This document shows positions 9,989 through 19,241 of a stretch of 34,295 nt of DNA, in pieces (the first letter of the stretch is position 1; each line of letters begins with the position of its first letter). This stretch comes from an uncultured Verrucomicrobiota bacterium (lineage in GTDB: Bacteria > Verrucomicrobiota > Verrucomicrobiia > Chthoniobacterales > JACTMZ01). The position numbers were made by a program, and so were the translations under genes. Below the pieces are notes generated by a model that saw only the letters and a program-made list of their open reading frames with translations, did no database searches and was not told where the DNA came from. The stretch is taken from assembly GCA_903953565.1 (NCBI GenBank), contig CAJBKE010000062.1, forward strand, positions 1 to 34,295, read 5' to 3'.

Positions 9989-10327
9989 TTACGCTTTGAG
10001 GTGCTTGGAGACGTGCTTGGTCATCTCGAACATGCTGACGACTTTTTTGCCGCCGAAGATAACCTTCAGCTTGTCGTCGGCGTGGATCATCGTCTTTTTG
10101 ACTTTGTCCTGCAGCTTGTTCTTCTTGATGTAGTCACAGAGCCTCTTAGTCATTTGTCCGCGGGGAGCGGGCTTGGCGCCAACAACGGCGGCGAGAGCGG
10201 CGGAAGGCGTCACCGGCTTCATGAGCGCGGGATTCGCTTTCCGTTTTTTCTTCACCACTTTTTTCTTGGCGGCCTTTTTGACGGTTTTCTTGGCTGGTTT
10301 ACTTTTGGTTGCTTTTTTCTTAGGCAT
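9989..10327 (-). CDS. SWIB/MDM2 domain protein with lysine-rich histone-like tail
   Basis: The 112-residue protein has a lysine-rich N-terminal tail (MPKKKATKSKPAKKTVKKAA and on to about residue 32) like histone H1 or chlamydial Hc proteins, followed by a SWIB domain (about 38-112) with PRGQMTKRLCDYIKKNKLQDK and a DDKLKVIFGGKKVVSMFEMTKHVSKHL end. SWIB domains occur in eukaryotic chromatin remodelers and in PVC-group bacteria, where a nucleoid role is likely but unproven. The start is supported by AAGGA about 7 nt upstream. It is a single-gene transcript with its own terminator, located just beyond the 3' end of the giant amylase gene. Confidence 0.9.
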   Translation of the reverse strand: MPKKKATKSKPAKKTVKKAAKKKVVKKKRKANPALMKPVTPSAALAAVVGAKPAPRGQMTKRLCDYIKKNKLQDKVKKTMIHADDKLKVIFGGKKVVSMFEMTKHVSKHLKA

Positions 10328-10430: not shown

Positions 10431-13400
10431 TCAGATCCCGTCGCCGCCCGGATCGGCGGAACCGGCGACCTCGACTTCGAGCCGGTAGAAACGGCCCGGC
10501 GTATTGCCAAGGCCGGTTTCGGTGACGTCCTTGGTCGTGCCGTCGCCGGTCACGGGATTACTCTGGCCATTCCCAACGTTGCTGACCGGTGCCCAATCAT
10601 CACCTGAGTCGAGAATGGTGCGGGCCATGACGGTGTAGACCCGGCCGGCGACAGTCGGGAAGGTCACGCGGAAGGTATCACCGGTCGATTCGACAGCGAG
10701 GGCGGGGAAACCGCTGGTGGCATCCTTGGGGTTGGAGCCGACGACATATTCCTCGCGATCGGCCAGAGTATCGCTGTCGAAGTCGGCAGAGCCGTCACGG
10801 TCGAGATTGCCGAAGTTTTCCAACTCCCATGCATCAGGGAGACCATCGGCATCGCTGTCGGCGGCTGGTTGCGTGAGATCCGTGCCCTGATCGAAGCCGA
10901 AGACCAACGTGGTGTTGCCGGTGATGGCCACTTCCACTTGGTGCGTCTGCGCTTGGTTGCGGCGGTTGACCGTGGTGAAAGTCGCCCCGCCCACATCCGT
11001 TGCGCCGGCATTGATCGAACTGTTGGCCGAAGTCTGGACAAACGCACGCACCGGACCGTCGCCGCTCGCATTGTTGACCAAGTTGACGCGCTTGTTATCC
11101 GGAGTGATCTGCTCGGTGCCGAGGTTGGCATGACCGTTCTTCATCAGGTCGAGCAAGTTCGGGGCAAGACCGAAGCGCACGTAGAGTTGGCCGGGGCCGC
11201 TCAGGGTGTAGGCCGCGCTGACGTTTCCGCTCCATGCATCGGGCAGCGAAATTGTCTTGGAGATGCCGGCAGTGTTGAATGTCCATGCCGCGTCGCCCGC
11301 CGAGGCAACCGTGTAATCTGCGTTAACCGCAGCGCTGTTGCCGGTGCCGAATGTGCCGCCGGTTGCCCACCAATCCTTGAAGCCGCTGGTGCGGTAGGCA
11401 CTGAGTGTCGTTGTTGTCCCGACAAAATTGCTAGCGCCCTCGACGTCCGTTTCGGTGTTGGCGTAGGAAGCGAAGTTGCCGGCGACCTGCCAGATTTTTC
11501 CGGTGGACGGATCACGCAACCACGCGGCGGTCATGCGCCCGCCCTTGGCCTCGAAAACGGCAAAGATGCGACTGTTGTAGAGCAGATATTCCACGGCTCC
11601 GTCGAGATCGACGTCCAACTCCTGCTTGCCGCGTGTCGCGCTATTTGCCGATGTGGCCCAAGCTTGGACACGCTCGAAGACTTTGGCAAAGCGCGCCTGG
11701 CCCTGGGTGTTCTTGGCAAAGTCGGCCAGCGATTGGTTGGCGAGCGAAGCGGGGCTGATGTAGTCGCCGGTGCTGAACTTTCTCAGGTCAATCCCTTGAC
11801 CGGCGTTCGGTTGATAGAAGGACGTCTGGAACATGGCGCCGCCGATGACCGCGCGAGCCACTTTTTGCAGGCTCAGTGAGCTGACAGAGTTGGCCGCGGT
11901 CCACGCAGCATTGGCATGGCCGTCGACACCGACCTGCCCGAAGGGTGACGAGGCGCCGAGGTTTTGCACCTTTAGCTTGTTGTACCAATTGTCGTAGCTC
12001 TCGCCGGTGGCCCAATCGACATAGTCCTTGGCGGTTTGATCAAGATTTTGCCCCGTGCCGCGGCCTTCAGTTCCCCACGTGCTGTAGGTATTGCCGTCCT
12101 GACCGACGTAATTGATCTGGTTGTCGGCCACCTGCTGTGCGGTGACCACTTGGATCCACGGGCGGCTGCCCAGCCAACTCACGTTGGCATCGTAGCTGTC
12201 GGCTTTGGACAATGTGCCGAAGTCGCTCATATCGCGCCAGAGGACGACTGCCTGGTCCTGCACCCCGCTGCGGGCGCGGCGGGAGAGAAGTTGGCGGACC
12301 GACAGGGCCGAGCCTTCGTCGCGGGTCTGGTCGAGGTATTCGCTGGTCACATCATGGATCGGGATGACCTTCATGCCGTTGACCTCGTTGATGCGGTAGC
12401 CGGCAGTGCCGAGGGCGGCGCTGCGGCCGAACCACTTGCGGAAGTGACGCATCTGGTCGGCGAAGACGATGCGGTAACCCATGTTGTAGATCGCGTCCAA
12501 AGACTCGTCATCGAGCACGCGTTCAGGCGCCCAGAAGATGTTCGATGACACCGAGCCGTAGATGCCGGTGAGGAATTCGTCGGCCAGCTGCTTGTTGGCG
12601 AGATTGAAAGATTGCTGGAAATACTTCGGCATGTGATCGGCGAAGGTCGAACCGACCAGATCGATTTTGTTCGCGGTGACGAGATTCCTGATGCGCTGGT
12701 TGAGGCTCGGGCCGTCGTTGAGCGCACCGGGCGTCGGGTTGTCCGCCCATTGCAGGGCCGAGGCCAGAGTGGGAGTGACGTGCAGGGTCAGCGGCACATT
12801 GTGATCTTCGTGACTCTTGATCAGGCGCTGGTAGCCAACAGAGCTGGTGCCGCTGGTGCTATGAATGAGTGACTGGGTGACGCTGGCCGGCTGGATGGCT
12901 TGGTTGCCGTGAGCCACGAGCATCACCTTGGCATTCTTGCCGCGGTCGTTACTGCCGCTGCGGCTGAAATAGCTGCTTAGTTTGCCGTTGAGAATAATGT
13001 TGTCCTGATCACGCCACCAATCGGACGCGAGGTAGTCGTCGTAGATGGTATCGCGGATGTCGTTGCGTCCGCCCAAATCACCCGAGCCCACACCGACGCC
13101 GTTGAGGCCGTTTTGCGTGTTCGGCTTGGTCACGAACACTTGGAAATTCAAAGTATTCGGATCACCCAGCCAACCGGCATCCTTGAGTTGCTGGCGCTCG
13201 ACGGCGATTTCGACCGTATCGTAGCGACTCGACCACGCAGCCTCGTTGAGCCCGCCGAAGCCGCGCGCCTCGACGCCACCGGCCGTGACGGGATTTTGGG
13301 TCTGCGTCGTGGTGTTCAGCGCAGCATTTCGATCGACGAAAATATTGCCGAAGTTTTGCCCGTAGACCGCAATGACCGCTTCCCACTTCATGTCGGTAGC

Positions 13401-16400
13401 GATATCGACCTCGTTGGGAATGGAACGCTCGCCCGCGCCGGGGTTGCCGGTGTCGACCACGATGTAGGCGTCCACCTCGCCCTGCCACGCATTCGCAGTG
13501 AGATCCATGAAGTCGATGCGGAAGTAGACGCGTCCATCACCATCCGCCTCCGTGTCGCCGCCATCGCGGAAAGAGAATGCGAGGATATCGCGGGATGTAT
13601 CGCTATCGTTGTTTGAACGATAGACATCTGCTGCGCCGTTGCTGTTGCTCTCGTTGTATCCGTCGAGGACGAGCAGATCGGTGTGCTTCCATTGCGTGAA
13701 TGTGCCAATGGTGATTGAACCCTCACCACCGCCACCACCGCCGGTGGTCGGCTGGTTCGGGTGTGTTCCGGAGGCCAGCTCCTGCGCATTGGTGAAGCCA
13801 TCGCCATCCGGATCACCCGAGGGGCCATTGTTCGGATTTCCCGCTCCGCCCGTGCGCATGCTCGTCGTTCCGTTATCGAGCGCATCGAGTCCGTATTGAG
13901 TTTCCCATCCGTCGGGCAGACCGTCGCCGTCGGTGTCGAATTTGAGCGGATCGGTCTCCGACCACTGCTCGCCGGCGTTGTAGGTCCGGTTGCGTGGATT
14001 AGTGTCGCCGTCGATAACGCCATTGAAGTTTTTGTCCTCGCCGTAGCCATCGCTCAACGCATCCTCGTCCGAGTCCGACTTGGTCGGGCTGGTTTCGATC
14101 CAGGTTTCAGTGTCAATCTTGTCGTTGGGCCAAGAACGGGCCAGCCAAGGCTCCCAAGTCGGCTCGATGGATTGGCCGTCTCCGTTCACCCAACCGTTTC
14201 GGTCGGTGTCCTCAACCCCGTCCGAAATGCCGTCGTTGTCGGTGTCGGGATTCGTCGGATCGGTCACCGTGCCGGCAGCTTGGCGGGTGCGGTCATCGCC
14301 TTGGTTCAAGGAACCGACGCCGGGCACTTTGCCGTTGTTGCCGACCACCGCATAGAACGGCGGATCGAGGTCGCCGATGAAGTTCTTGAAACCGTCGCCA
14401 TTGGTGTCGGCGTTTACGTCGGTCACGTCGGTGTTAGCCAGACGCCATCCCACCTCGAGAGCATCGGGCAGAAGATCGCCGTCCGAATCGGGACTGTTCG
14501 GCAGCGTGAGCCCGGACGCACGATGGATGTGCACGTCGCCATTGCTCCATGTTTCGGCGTTGGCTTCAGGCAGATCTTTCTTGTTCGTCTCGTCGATATC
14601 GACGAGGCCGTCCTCGTCGTCGTCATTGCTCGAATCGATGTCGGTTCCGGTGATCTGGCGCAGGATGACGCGCGCGTTGCGCACCGTCTCGGTCACTTGG
14701 CTGCCAAGCGTTGCGGTGGCTTTGAGCACGTAGGTGGCCGGTGCGGTGATCCGCCAGGTGAAGTCCCAGGTCTTGGTGTTGCCGGCGGTGGAAACCTTGA
14801 TGCCGTCCCATGAGCCGTTGTTGTTGGTGTCGGTGAAGGGTTCGGCGTTGTCGCGCACCCCGTTGCCATTCGTATCGGAGAAAAGTTCGCCCGGAGCGTC
14901 GCAGACGCCGTTGTCGTTCACATCGCTGTAGGTCTCGGCGCTGTCCCAAAGCCCAGTGTTATTGGTGTCGACGAGGGGTTCGGCCACGTCCCACTGACCG
15001 TTGCCGTTGAGGTCGGTGTAGGCCTCGCCGGTATCCCACGTGCCATTGTTGTTGGCATCGACGAAGAGTTCGGCCGCGTCCCAATTTCCGTTGCCGTTGC
15101 TATCGGTGAAAATCTCGGCCGGATCACGGAGACCGTTGTTGTTTTTGTCGGTCGAAGGCTCTTGCGCGTCCCACTTGCCGTTACCGTTGGTGTCGGTGAA
15201 AGTTTCGGTGAAGAGATCGATGCTAGGGGTGCCACTCAGAACCAGATCATTGACCGCGGCGCTGGTCTCCACGCGCACCACGTAGTCCAGCACATCGCCC
15301 GGGAGCGGCGTGTTGGGCACATCAGGGAGAATGATCTCGGTCTGGCGTCCGTCGGAACCGAGTTCGGTCGGGCGGGTGATGCGGACAAAGGGCTTGGTGC
15401 TCGGGTTGGCTTTGACCAAACGGACCGCATCGAGTTTGCGATTGTCGGGGAAGGTGTAGGTGACCTTCAACGTGTGCAGGAACTCCGCCACATCGTTGTA
15501 CATGTTGGGCAACGGGATGGCCAACTCGTGGAAGGTGTCGTTGACGTTGTAGTTGATGGTGAAGTTGTCGCGGCTCTGCACCACCGCGCCGCGTTCGGTG
15601 CCGCTCTCGGTGCTGGCGATGCTTAAGGTGAATCTGCTGATCAACTCATCGGTGTTGGAGCCGCTGTCGTTGGCATCAGGGATGCCGTCGGCCAACGACT
15701 TCGTGAAGTAGACCTTCATCGTGTAATTGTCGTCGACCCGGTCGCCATCGCGCTGCGGCCACGCGATGTTGACGCGCTGGTCGGGGCCATCCGTGTTCAC
15801 GTTGCGGACAATCTCGGTGACGTGCGCGGCGGCGGCAGTCATGTCGATGTCGCGCACCGAGGAAGCCTCGATCAGACGGATCGTGATGGCCGCAGTAGCA
15901 GGATCGGTGTTTTTGGAGGGAATATTGTTATAGCGGAAGCGCCACTCTTTCTGGTCGGGCAGGTTGACGGACGTCAGTTGAGTGGCTTGTCCCCAAGATT
16001 GCGCCAGGGCGGCGTCGTAAACACCGTTGGCGTTGATATCCGTGAATTCCTCTCCAGCCTCGCGGATGCCGTTCTGGTTAGCGTCGACGAACGGCTCGAA
16101 GCCTGGGCCGTTGCCGTTGAGGATTTGGGTCACGGCGTCGTTGTTGCCGTTGTCGCTGTCGGCGATGTGGAACCAGACATCCTCGACCGTCATGTCAGTG
16201 CGGACGACGAGTTCGTAGCTCGAGCCGCCGACCGTGTCGCCATTGTTGGCCGGGAACAGCACCTCGCCGGTGGGCGTGGCGGCATCATAGTAAAAGACCT
16301 GCGTGAAAGTCTGGTAAAGCGGCGCGGAGGTGTCCGGATTGCGGTTGAGGTGGGCACGGGCGCGGAGAACGTGGAAACCCTCGCTCAGGCCGGTCTGCGT

Positions 16401-19241
16401 GGCGAGAGGCCAGCTGGAATAAGCGGCGCTGAGCGTCGGCACGCGGGCGTAGTCGTTGTGCGGGAAGAATACTTTCGTCGACGGATTGAAATCGCCCAAG
16501 CGGAAGGTGGTCAGCATGTTTTTCTTGCGGGTGACCTCCGTCGGGCCGCTCGGCCATTGGGAGGAGGCGCCGGTTTTGTAGAAACCGATTTTGTATCTGA
16601 AGATGGTTCCCGCAGCGGGTTTCGGGATGTTGGCCGAAGCCCACCAGTCGTCGGTTGTCTGGTTGTGGCGGTAATTCAACTCGGCCACGCGGGTCGTGCC
16701 GCGACCGATGCCGCCCGCACCCTCGGGGAAACTGCCGTCGAGCGTGTAGTAAACGAAAGCCTTGAAGCCGCCACCGACGGAGTTGCTCTTGGACCAAATG
16801 ACGATATTCGCACCCGACTCGTCGAACTGCTTCGGCGGAGAGGAAATACCGCCCACATCAACGGTTGGATCATGATAAACCCATGAAGCCTGATTGCCGC
16901 CATCGGTGCCGTAATTGTTTGCCGTGGCCGGGCCATTGTTGATCGATCCTCCGCCGCCGATGGTGCGGACGTAGGTCTCCGCGCCCGGCGATCCGATCTG
17001 GCAACGCGCCGTGTCTTGCGCCGCGAATTTTTCAGCGAACTGGCGCTCGACAAAGAGCGGTTGCTCGTAGCCCATCCAGATGTCGCTGTAGATGCCGGGC
17101 GGATGGTCGCGGAAAGCCGGGTCCGTGTTGTTGGTCGGGCGCGTTCCATTGAGGTCCACGCCACCGTCGAGCTTGAGCCAGATGTTTTCCGCCGATCCGT
17201 CGGCGCGGGCCACGATGCTGAAGTTGCCGCTTTTCACCACCGGAACGGTGGTCTGGTAAGTATAATCCGGCGGGTTGGTGACGCTGGTGGGATAACCGCG
17301 ATTCGGAAGGTTGTAAGGGTTGAAACTTTTGTCACCGTCCGGGCCGTCCTTGCGCGTAACCGTGATGCGCGGAACCTCCTCGACTTGGCCGTTGTTCGAG
17401 TTGGTCTGGTATAGCGTGACGGCAGCACTCGGCCAAAGCGTGGACAACTCGGGTGTGCGCCAAGCAAAGACGTAGTAGCCACCGGGCGGGACGACGACGC
17501 TGCCGAGCTCGCCGGCATATTTGTAGAAACCGCCCATGAACGAGCCGTTGGGACCCTCCGCATATTGGTAGAGGTAGGCACCCGACCAGAAACTCGTGCT
17601 GATCGGGCGGGCCTGGCCCTGCGCAGTGTTGTCGTTGAACATCGCCACCATGGTGATCTCCTCGGAGGCCGTGCCGTTGCGCGTGTTGCCGAATTTGTCG
17701 CGATTGTCGCGGCGCTCATAGGCCATGTAATCGCTGTCGCCCCAGCGTCCCTGCTGCAAGCCGCGGGCAAAATCGTTGTGGATCTTCAAAATGTTCGGGA
17801 TGCGCGGATCACCGAATTGTCCGAGGAATTGCGTGTTCGCGTGACGCGGGAAGGCACCGCCGGATTCGCCGAGAGTGGCGGCCTTGTAATAACCATCCGA
17901 GTAAATCAGTCCCATGCCCTCGCGGAACATGTAGTGGGCGTGCTGGAATTCCTTCTGCGCCGCATAGTCACTGTCGTGGCTGTTGGCGTGGGTTACACCC
18001 AGGCTGGCAGCGAACCCGCCGGCGCCGGGAGAATCGAGACCGGCCAGAGTTGCGCCGGGGTTGCCTAGAGTGTTGTTGAGCTTGGAGCGAAGGTCGTTGT
18101 CGACGAGGCGCATGCCGGCGTCCCAATAACCGCCGTATCCCGGCGGTTGGCCGAGGTGCTCGCCTAAAACCATCGCGTCATCGCGGCCTTTCTTGTCCTC
18201 GAAAACCGAATCGCGGTGATTCGCGTCGCTGAATCCACGGGTGCGGTTGAACTGCCACTGGACCTGCCCTAGGTAGCCATCGTTGCTCGTGTCCTTGTCG
18301 GCTCCCGACTGCTTGCCGAAAAAGTAATCCGGCACGTGCTTGACCGCATCGAGGCGGAGGCCATCGGCCTTGAGGCGGTCCATTTTCCAGCGCACAGCCC
18401 GCTCGAGATACGTCTCGACGTATTCGACGTAAGCCGAACGGTTTTCGAGGATGTAGGCCTTGGCATGGTCGCGCAGTTGCTCTGCGGTTGCGCTCGCCCC
18501 GAGCGCGGCTTTGGCCCGGTCGATCAGCCAGCCGAAGTATTGGCGGTTGCCGTCCTTGTCGAAATCGTATTGCTCCGGACGGTTCAGGTCGCGGACGAAG
18601 CCGTATTTCGGGTGGGTCGAGCCCTCACTCGTCCCGAAGTTCAGGTTGTTGCCGGATTCCTGCGCGATGTCGATGAGGTCGGCCAAGCCGAGGTTTTGCA
18701 CCTGCCAGGCGCTGCCCCAATCGCGCGTATTGTCCCATTTGCGGTAAAAGCCGTCCTCGGTTTTGCGCAGGTGAAAATCCTCGGGCACCATGCCGGGATA
18801 AAGTTCTGTCTGTCCCTCGCCGCCGGTCGGCGTGTCCTCGTTGTAACCCGGGATATCGAACGCCCGGTGGTTCATGATGTTGTCGAAATAGACGCGGATG
18901 CCGAAGCAGTGCGCCACTTCCATCATGTGCTGCAAATCCGCCTCGGTGCCGTAACGCGTGCGCACCGTGTTGCGCTGGTCTTTTTGCCCGAAGTCGCACG
19001 GATCCCACAAATCGTAACCGACGGACAGGCCACCCGAGCCTTTGGTCGGGGGCGGTAGCCAGAGCGATCCATAGCCGGCCTCGGCCAATTCGGGCATTTT
19101 GCGCGCGATCTCGGCGTAAGAGACGTTGAAGAGTTGGAGCAACCCTTCGGCGCGCGCGGAGGAAAGCAGCCCGCCTGTCAGGAGGAGGCAGCCCACCGTG
19201 GCGACAACAAGCCGCCGCCAAAATGACGGGGAGAACTTCAT
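10431..19241 (-). CDS. Giant secreted bifunctional glycosidase: GH13 alpha-amylase + Ca-binding repeats + DOMON-like + GH57-like domain
   Basis: This 2936-residue protein starts with a signal peptide (about residues 1-32, hydrophobic core VVATVGCLLLTGGLL, cleavage after ARA). A GH13 domain follows with all four motifs: DNIMNH (120-125), GLRLDAVKH with nucleophile D298, VLGEHLG with acid/base E361, and NSHDSD with H422/D423. Beyond about residue 700 come beta-sandwich, CBM- or Ig-like stretches, nine 15-residue DxNxNGxWD repeats (1350-1480) and TSP3-like Asp-rich repeats (about 1570-1825). A CBM9/DOMON-like module (about 1850-2065) precedes a GH57-like barrel: VAHGNQAIQP (H2111), FWAPERV (E2240), LWRDMSDFG (D2337/D2340). 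The C-terminus has more TSP3 repeats and a small sandwich domain. It is likely a cell-surface or secreted starch/glycogen degrader. Start 19241 has AGGGGG 6 nt upstream and precedes the signal peptide; longer in-frame starts were rejected. The GH57 call is less certain than GH13. Confidence 0.88.
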   Translation of the reverse strand: MKFSPSFWRRLVVATVGCLLLTGGLLSSARAEGLLQLFNVSYAEIARKMPELAEAGYGSLWLPPPTKGSGGLSVGYDLWDPCDFGQKDQRNTVRTRYGTEADLQHMMEVAHCFGIRVYFDNIMNHRAFDIPGYNEDTPTGGEGQTELYPGMVPEDFHLRKTEDGFYRKWDNTRDWGSAWQVQNLGLADLIDIAQESGNNLNFGTSEGSTHPKYGFVRDLNRPEQYDFDKDGNRQYFGWLIDRAKAALGASATAEQLRDHAKAYILENRSAYVEYVETYLERAVRWKMDRLKADGLRLDAVKHVPDYFFGKQSGADKDTSNDGYLGQVQWQFNRTRGFSDANHRDSVFEDKKGRDDAMVLGEHLGQPPGYGGYWDAGMRLVDNDLRSKLNNTLGNPGATLAGLDSPGAGGFAASLGVTHANSHDSDYAAQKEFQHAHYMFREGMGLIYSDGYYKAATLGESGGAFPRHANTQFLGQFGDPRIPNILKIHNDFARGLQQGRWGDSDYMAYERRDNRDKFGNTRNGTASEEITMVAMFNDNTAQGQARPISTSFWSGAYLYQYAEGPNGSFMGGFYKYAGELGSVVVPPGGYYVFAWRTPELSTLWPSAAVTLYQTNSNNGQVEEVPRITVTRKDGPDGDKSFNPYNLPNRGYPTSVTNPPDYTYQTTVPVVKSGNFSIVARADGSAENIWLKLDGGVDLNGTRPTNNTDPAFRDHPPGIYSDIWMGYEQPLFVERQFAEKFAAQDTARCQIGSPGAETYVRTIGGGGSINNGPATANNYGTDGGNQASWVYHDPTVDVGGISSPPKQFDESGANIVIWSKSNSVGGGFKAFVYYTLDGSFPEGAGGIGRGTTRVAELNYRHNQTTDDWWASANIPKPAAGTIFRYKIGFYKTGASSQWPSGPTEVTRKKNMLTTFRLGDFNPSTKVFFPHNDYARVPTLSAAYSSWPLATQTGLSEGFHVLRARAHLNRNPDTSAPLYQTFTQVFYYDAATPTGEVLFPANNGDTVGGSSYELVVRTDMTVEDVWFHIADSDNGNNDAVTQILNGNGPGFEPFVDANQNGIREAGEEFTDINANGVYDAALAQSWGQATQLTSVNLPDQKEWRFRYNNIPSKNTDPATAAITIRLIEASSVRDIDMTAAAAHVTEIVRNVNTDGPDQRVNIAWPQRDGDRVDDNYTMKVYFTKSLADGIPDANDSGSNTDELISRFTLSIASTESGTERGAVVQSRDNFTINYNVNDTFHELAIPLPNMYNDVAEFLHTLKVTYTFPDNRKLDAVRLVKANPSTKPFVRITRPTELGSDGRQTEIILPDVPNTPLPGDVLDYVVRVETSAAVNDLVLSGTPSIDLFTETFTDTNGNGKWDAQEPSTDKNNNGLRDPAEIFTDSNGNGNWDAAELFVDANNNGTWDTGEAYTDLNGNGQWDVAEPLVDTNNTGLWDSAETYSDVNDNGVCDAPGELFSDTNGNGVRDNAEPFTDTNNNGSWDGIKVSTAGNTKTWDFTWRITAPATYVLKATATLGSQVTETVRNARVILRQITGTDIDSSNDDDEDGLVDIDETNKKDLPEANAETWSNGDVHIHRASGLTLPNSPDSDGDLLPDALEVGWRLANTDVTDVNADTNGDGFKNFIGDLDPPFYAVVGNNGKVPGVGSLNQGDDRTRQAAGTVTDPTNPDTDNDGISDGVEDTDRNGWVNGDGQSIEPTWEPWLARSWPNDKIDTETWIETSPTKSDSDEDALSDGYGEDKNFNGVIDGDTNPRNRTYNAGEQWSETDPLKFDTDGDGLPDGWETQYGLDALDNGTTSMRTGGAGNPNNGPSGDPDGDGFTNAQELASGTHPNQPTTGGGGGGEGSITIGTFTQWKHTDLLVLDGYNESNSNGAADVYRSNNDSDTSRDILAFSFRDGGDTEADGDGRVYFRIDFMDLTANAWQGEVDAYIVVDTGNPGAGERSIPNEVDIATDMKWEAVIAVYGQNFGNIFVDRNAALNTTTQTQNPVTAGGVEARGFGGLNEAAWSSRYDTVEIAVERQQLKDAGWLGDPNTLNFQVFVTKPNTQNGLNGVGVGSGDLGGRNDIRDTIYDDYLASDWWRDQDNIILNGKLSSYFSRSGSNDRGKNAKVMLVAHGNQAIQPASVTQSLIHSTSGTSSVGYQRLIKSHEDHNVPLTLHVTPTLASALQWADNPTPGALNDGPSLNQRIRNLVTANKIDLVGSTFADHMPKYFQQSFNLANKQLADEFLTGIYGSVSSNIFWAPERVLDDESLDAIYNMGYRIVFADQMRHFRKWFGRSAALGTAGYRINEVNGMKVIPIHDVTSEYLDQTRDEGSALSVRQLLSRRARSGVQDQAVVLWRDMSDFGTLSKADSYDANVSWLGSRPWIQVVTAQQVADNQINYVGQDGNTYSTWGTEGRGTGQNLDQTAKDYVDWATGESYDNWYNKLKVQNLGASSPFGQVGVDGHANAAWTAANSVSSLSLQKVARAVIGGAMFQTSFYQPNAGQGIDLRKFSTGDYISPASLANQSLADFAKNTQGQARFAKVFERVQAWATSANSATRGKQELDVDLDGAVEYLLYNSRIFAVFEAKGGRMTAAWLRDPSTGKIWQVAGNFASYANTETDVEGASNFVGTTTTLSAYRTSGFKDWWATGGTFGTGNSAAVNADYTVASAGDAAWTFNTAGISKTISLPDAWSGNVSAAYTLSGPGQLYVRFGLAPNLLDLMKNGHANLGTEQITPDNKRVNLVNNASGDGPVRAFVQTSANSSINAGATDVGGATFTTVNRRNQAQTHQVEVAITGNTTLVFGFDQGTDLTQPAADSDADGLPDAWELENFGNLDRDGSADFDSDTLADREEYVVGSNPKDATSGFPALAVESTGDTFRVTFPTVAGRVYTVMARTILDSGDDWAPVSNVGNGQSNPVTGDGTTKDVTETGLGNTPGRFYRLEVEVAGSADPGGDGI
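14802..15194 (-). repeat. Nine tandem 45-bp units encoding DxNxNGxWD calcium-binding repeats
   Basis: Within the giant gene, codons for about residues 1350-1480 repeat with a 15-residue period, e.g. DTNGNGKWDAQEPST, DSNGNGNWDAAELFV, DANNNGTWDTGEAYT, DLNGNGQWDVAEPLV. The DxNxNGxxDxxE pattern matches EF-hand/dockerin-like calcium loops. An isolated pair of the same type is encoded near 16020-16095. DNA identity between units is partial, so this is an old array under protein-level selection rather than a fresh satellite. Confidence 0.85.

Follow-up and report, generated by a model that had tools for sequence, protein, structure and literature searches.

The window, the whole stretch of 34,295 nucleotides of DNA that was analysed, carries on its minus strand a single open frame, running from 19241 to 10431, which encodes a protein of 2936 amino acids with zero internal stops. 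The ATG at 19241 is preceded by the purine-rich stretch AGGGGGCCCC. An uninterrupted frame with an N-terminal signal peptide had been described in the initial annotation, which gave no strand; the frame was confirmed, and residues 1-31 resemble, by eye, a Sec signal peptide. The features of the gene and its product are as follows.

10431..19241, minus strand: coding sequence of the GH13 and DOMON-GH57 protein (ATG at 19241, stop codon at 10431-10433)
19149..19241, minus strand: putative Sec signal peptide, residues 1-31 (MKFSPSFWRRLVVATVGCLLLTGGLLSSARA), judged by eye
17454..19160, minus strand: GH13 alpha-amylase domain, residues 28-596 (Pfam PF00128, PDB 3bc9, predicted fold)
18348..18350, minus strand: D298, GH13 nucleophile position (D in 49/49)
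18159..18161, minus strand: E361, GH13 acid/base position (E in 49/49)
17973..17975, minus strand: D423, GH13 transition-state stabiliser position (D in 49/49)
15222..17324, minus strand: chain of predicted beta-rich domains, residues 640-1340 (secondary structure; kept in homologues)
14802..15194, minus strand: nine 15-residue DxNxNG-type repeats, residues 1350-1480 (sequence; homologue alignment)
13722..14624, minus strand: TSP3-like Ca2+-repeat region, residues 1540-1840 (Pfam PF18884)
12945..13694, minus strand: DOMON / glucodextranase-C-like beta-sandwich, residues 1850-2099 (predicted fold)
11679..12938, minus strand: GH57-like catalytic domain, residues 2102-2521 (Pfam PF03065; predicted fold)
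12909..12911, minus strand: H2111, GH57 conserved region 1 (HGNQ; H in 47/49)
12522..12524, minus strand: E2240, GH57 nucleophile position (FWAPER, region 3; E in 49/49)
12231..12233, minus strand: D2337, GH57 proton-donor position (region 4, D-x-[E/S]-x-F-G; motif register)
11022..11633, minus strand: post-GH57 beta-sandwich, residues 2537-2740 (model residues 688-891; within the span aligned to 1k1x)
10434..10859, minus strand: C-terminal TSP3-like repeat and terminal domain, residues 2795-2936 (sequence)

Pfam analysis of the window protein identified an alpha-amylase domain in the N-terminal half (PF00128, E 1.9e-9, 37.7 bits against a cut-off of 22), and the top PDB sequence match of this domain was alpha-amylase B (3bc9, E 4.9e-22; E 8.7e-35 with the family profile). 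Residues 28-1045 were modelled with a pLDDT of 83.5 and a pTM of 0.85. The predicted fold of the GH13 portion (28-596) is the (beta/alpha)8-barrel of alpha-amylases, and it matched the Bacillus and Pyrococcus enzymes with Z 25.2 and rmsd 3.5 over 400 residues (1e3x), while Foldseek returned alpha-amylases with E 2.5e-20. The complete GH13 motifs claimed at the outset were present, with D298, E361 and D423 located in GLRLDAVKH, GEH and SHD motifs, respectively, and all three residues unchanged across the full-length proteins of the family. From sequence and model we infer that the GH13 half is an active alpha-amylase-type domain, and see no ground for doubt.

The GH13 domain is followed by the beta-rich chain, of which the modelled part (640-1045) consists mostly of strands and for which a binding role may be proposed. 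Nine DxNxNG repeats had been reported and nine units were indeed found, but only eight are exact, the ninth being degenerate. These repeats, with a period of 15 residues, are probably Ca2+-binding, and the stretch is an expansion missing in most homologues. The TSP3-like repeats correspond to a Pfam call of TSP3_bac (PF18884) which lies slightly below its cut-off.

A DOMON-GH57 unit follows about 1500 residues after the GH13 domain. The initial annotation had regarded this second domain as GH57-like and had suggested an HMM search and a structure prediction, and the results of both agree with it. In the window protein PF03065 (Glyco_hydro_57) was detected with E 3.6e-5 and a score of 23.7 bits, or 26.6 bits for the segment, where the gathering score is 21.2. 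The same model was separately recovered in 47 of the 48 homologous segments (E up to 0.1), so the call is not a chance one. Matching of the GH57-region profile to PDB sequences gave a marginal GH57 match only (7e1y, E 0.19), and a fold comparison was therefore required. Alignment with canonical GH57 proteins by hhalign was likewise weak (E 0.0067, probability 5.7%) and placed E2240 on the GH57 Glu; a search of PHROGs gave no match.

A model of residues 1850-2740 built on the 48-sequence alignment was confident (pLDDT 87.6, pTM 0.87), and its predicted fold includes the incomplete (beta/alpha)7 barrel of GH57. VIA-align ranked the Aquifex aeolicus amylopullulanase 9k7c first (Z 29.4, rmsd 3.5, 331 residues), with the 4-alpha-glucanotransferase of Thermococcus litoralis, 1k1x (Z 27.8, rmsd 9.5, 478 residues), and the Staphylothermus amylopullulanase (Z 27.1, rmsd 4.2, 363 residues) next. 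The first Foldseek match was 1k1x (E 3.1e-17), and the 1k1x alignment reaches model residue 891. GH38 enzymes and deacetylases share the fold but rank clearly lower, at Z of about 18 or less; for polysaccharide deacetylases (NodB/CE4) there were zero Pfam matches and a fold likeness of Z 12-18, well under that to GH57. The DOMON region which had been noted before is glucodextranase-like by predicted fold, the first 250 model residues matching the glucodextranase DOMON (1ug9) with Z 14.8 and rmsd 3.1 over 191 residues and CBM74 (7uwv) with Z 13.3 and rmsd 3.6 over 198 residues.

H2111, E2240 and the pair D2337/D2340, singled out from the start, were all found in the second domain. E2240 aligns with the GH57 WLPE motif by hhalign and with WTPE of 7e1y by hmmsearch, and is unchanged in all 49 full-length proteins as well as in 8 standalone paralogues. 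According to a published survey of GH57 the proton-donor Asp stands third in region 4 (PMC6037648). This region reads DAELFG in canonical GH57 proteins, DDWEAF in the standalone paralogues and SDWEDF in much of the fused family. The motif register D-x-E-x-F-G puts the donor at D2337; of the two aspartates proposed as catalytic, D2337 was thus retained and D2340 was rejected. The window protein and its whole clade have Asp at the donor position. Of the 48 aligned members, 22 carry N, A, H, R, W, P, M or G there instead, a change which needs four to five events on the tree.

With respect to region 1, HGNQA retains the first His and the Gln of HxHQP and has Asn in place of the second His. The divergence of this motif had been pointed out correctly, but it is a trait of the family (H2111 in 47/49 and N2113 in 42/49 proteins) and so not a defect of this copy. 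Since region 1 varies inside GH57, with HAHLP in the canonical GH57 protein of the source genome, HGNQA is a variant which does not exclude the domain from GH57. The window copy retains E2240, D2337 and H2111, and across the family H2111, D2262, H2266 and several Trp residues are invariant or nearly so. Because 22 of the 48 aligned members are without the proton donor, GH57 catalysis is not required family-wide, and some members may have a GH57 head that is inactive or that relies on a different acid.

Scanning 84,980 species genomes with peptide patterns taken from the window protein, an approach that may have passed over distant relatives, yielded 79 loci. These loci provided 48 full-length colinear homologues, 49 proteins with that of the window, from Verrucomicrobiota, Kiritimatiellota and Lentisphaerota bins and from isolates, Cerasicoccus arenae among them. 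The records L038, titled Halieaceae, and L014, titled Candidatus Paceibacterota, are probably mis-binned Verrucomicrobiota contigs. An apparent frame of 26,627 amino acids around a homologue on G163:C61 (L131-L134) was rejected as an artefact, as 72 of the 80 kb there consist of withheld bases which read as N. In a profile search within the window's phylum, the GH57 region was detected in 38 of 388 sampled genomes and 27 of 199 genera, mostly in frames of 2.8-3.4 thousand residues. The fusion had been considered unusual; GH13 and GH57 are indeed joined in one chain, but with 48 colinear homologues it is no one-off. The fused protein is an inherited, conserved and old family of Verrucomicrobiota and their relatives, and apparently an undescribed one.

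When the N-terminal GH13 module is placed on a tree of 80 rows, three changes account for the fused proteins; this supports one fusion origin and two later changes. In marine Opitutia (L051, L054, L055, L076, L079) a second GH13 stands where GH57 stood; these proteins range from at least 2.2 to more than 4.6 thousand residues, and contig ends truncate some of them. Haloferula-like proteins (L049, L188, L189; 1.41-1.47 thousand residues) stop after the GH13 half, and are read as having lost the GH57 half. A more distant GH13-only clade (L190-L196) sits near the base of the tree, so that the point at which the fusion arose is less certain. Evolution of the two halves is coupled (correlation of GH13 and GH57 distances, r = 0.69). 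Mean distances are 0.87 in the GH57 region and 0.49 in the GH13 region, a divergence about 1.8 times greater for the former. Standalone DOMON-GH57-TSP3 proteins of about 1.1-1.26 thousand residues (L122-L130) match residues of roughly 1810-2925 of the window protein at 25-27% identity; Pfam's GH57 model gave no call on them, and no GH57 match was found when their profile was compared with PDB sequences.

Among the loci with enough sequence, 16 of 35 have a divergent secreted GH13-like gene directly downstream of the fused gene (including L013, L019, L020, L023, L030, L032, L035, L038, L041, L044 and L060), and a GH13 neighbour lies upstream at one locus, L048. These neighbours are about 1000-1350 amino acids long. 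Their identity to the second GH13 of L076, an Opitutia protein, is 38-52%, which suggests that the Opitutia double-GH13 proteins arose by joining of the GH13 half to the neighbour GH13. No such neighbour lies beside the window gene, and no carbohydrate genes were seen by eye among its neighbours, which look housekeeping; the genome context therefore names no substrate. Just after the giant gene, at 9989-10327 on the minus strand, is a gene for a small Lys/Ala-rich histone H1-like protein starting MPKKKATKSKPAKKTVKKAAKKK.

Other very large starch-type proteins were observed in the source genome (G000). Contig C27 (L121:5204-13009, plus strand) encodes a 2602-residue double-GH13 protein which falls in a separate deep clade of proteins with two GH13 domains, and its first GH13 is a distant paralogue of that of the window protein at about 30% identity. 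On contig C55, a gene for an 1853-residue GH13 protein with Ig-like and DUF11 repeats (L175:5887-11445, plus strand) is convergent with one for a 1507-residue GH57-like protein with CBM53 and fn3 (L175:12268-16788, minus strand).

The gene product is probably a secreted two-headed alpha-glucan depolymerase. This reading is based on the signal-peptide-like start, the GH13 triad, the calcium-repeat linkers, the DOMON-GH57 fold and the conservation of the protein as a unit. The modest GH57 HMM score of 23.7 bits in the window counts against it, as do the weak profile-profile alignment with canonical GH57 and the loss of the donor in 22 of 48 aligned members. From what is known of the family, the GH13 head would cleave starch or glycogen at internal alpha-1,4 bonds, while the DOMON domain and beta-sandwiches would hold the polymer. 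The GH57 head, by debranching or by transfer, would act on the products left by GH13, be they regions with alpha-1,6 branches or short maltodextrins, the substrate and linkage being a guess. In the 16 of 35 relatives which have one, the downstream secreted GH13 would probably complete the enzyme set.

We regard it as unlikely that the GH57 half has lost all or nearly all of its catalytic activity and now acts as a large module, glucan-binding or structural, which feeds polymer to GH13. Replacement of D2337 in 22 of 48 members would fit such a role, as would the greater divergence of the GH57 region, its loss in Haloferula-like species and its exchange in Opitutia. Opposed to this are the invariance of E2240 in 49 proteins and 8 standalone paralogues, the near-complete conservation of H2111, D2262, H2266 and several Trp residues, and the retention of D2337 throughout the window's own clade. 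Quite improbable, in our assessment, is a GH57-fold enzyme with another activity, such as 4-alpha-glucan transfer, branching or action on a different glycan. GH57 spans several specificities (PMC6037648), the top Foldseek match (E about 3e-17) is a 4-alpha-glucanotransferase, and GH38 and polysaccharide deacetylase folds match too, with lower Z; against these, secreted starch debranching is favoured by the DOMON domain placed immediately N-terminal to the barrel and by the highest Z, which is to an amylopullulanase, and a secreted protein would presumably profit less from branching or transfer. An artefactual joining of two genes, through assembly or a frame error, can be dismissed, since although the source genome is a 70-contig draft, the frame is unbroken and is repeated colinearly in 48 homologues from independent assemblies, isolates among them.

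Beyond the depolymerase reading, a wider and more tentative proposal is that a PVC lineage may have evolved one extracellular polypeptide with two evolutionarily unrelated alpha-glucan-cleaving sites that work in tandem on one polymer, the second head being modular and evolvable: intact, non-catalytic or differently catalysed after donor loss, deleted, or replaced by a neighbour GH13. Bicatalytic alpha-glucanases are a known kind, and GH13 and GH57 are unrelated families which have converged on alpha-glucans with a retaining mechanism. In the literature we found separate enzymes only and no description of GH13 and GH57 in a single polypeptide; CAZy and subscription journals were outside the scope of this search, and an earlier notice there is possible. 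The fusion offers a natural test of whether two alpha-glucanase chemistries gain from tethering. It also reveals a GH57-like branch which retains the nucleophile but repeatedly lacks the donor, and which includes standalone DOMON-GH57 proteins uncalled by Pfam. It further suggests a way in which Verrucomicrobiota, given their several very large enzymes of starch type, attack storage glucans.

The GH13 half shares the complete fold, the conserved regions and the catalytic triad with alpha-amylases of Bacillus and Pyrococcus type (1e3x, 1mwo, 3bc9), whereas it is longer (569 vs about 480 residues), is 20-26% identical to them and is followed by about 2300 more residues. As in the GH57 enzymes 9k7c, 7e1y (Staphylothermus marinus) and 1k1x, the second half has the incomplete-barrel fold, over 331-478 aligned residues, together with recognisable conserved regions 1-4 and the nucleophile Glu; the alignment with 7e1y begins at model residue 33, within the DOMON-like sandwich of the window protein. 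It differs from these enzymes in its low identity (12-16%), in having HGNQ rather than HxHQP, in its fusion to a GH13 enzyme and in that nearly half of the window protein's relatives lack the proton donor. The glucodextranase C-terminal DOMON (1ug9 772-1020) and CBM74 (7uwv) share the beta-sandwich and, like the window domain, adjoin an alpha-glucan enzyme, while the window domain is without a Pfam sequence match and sits before GH57. The double-GH13 proteins of the same genome (C27, 2602 residues) and of Opitutia (L076) are likewise very large and have a homologous N-terminal GH13 module; their second head is a divergent GH13, where the window protein has DOMON-GH57.
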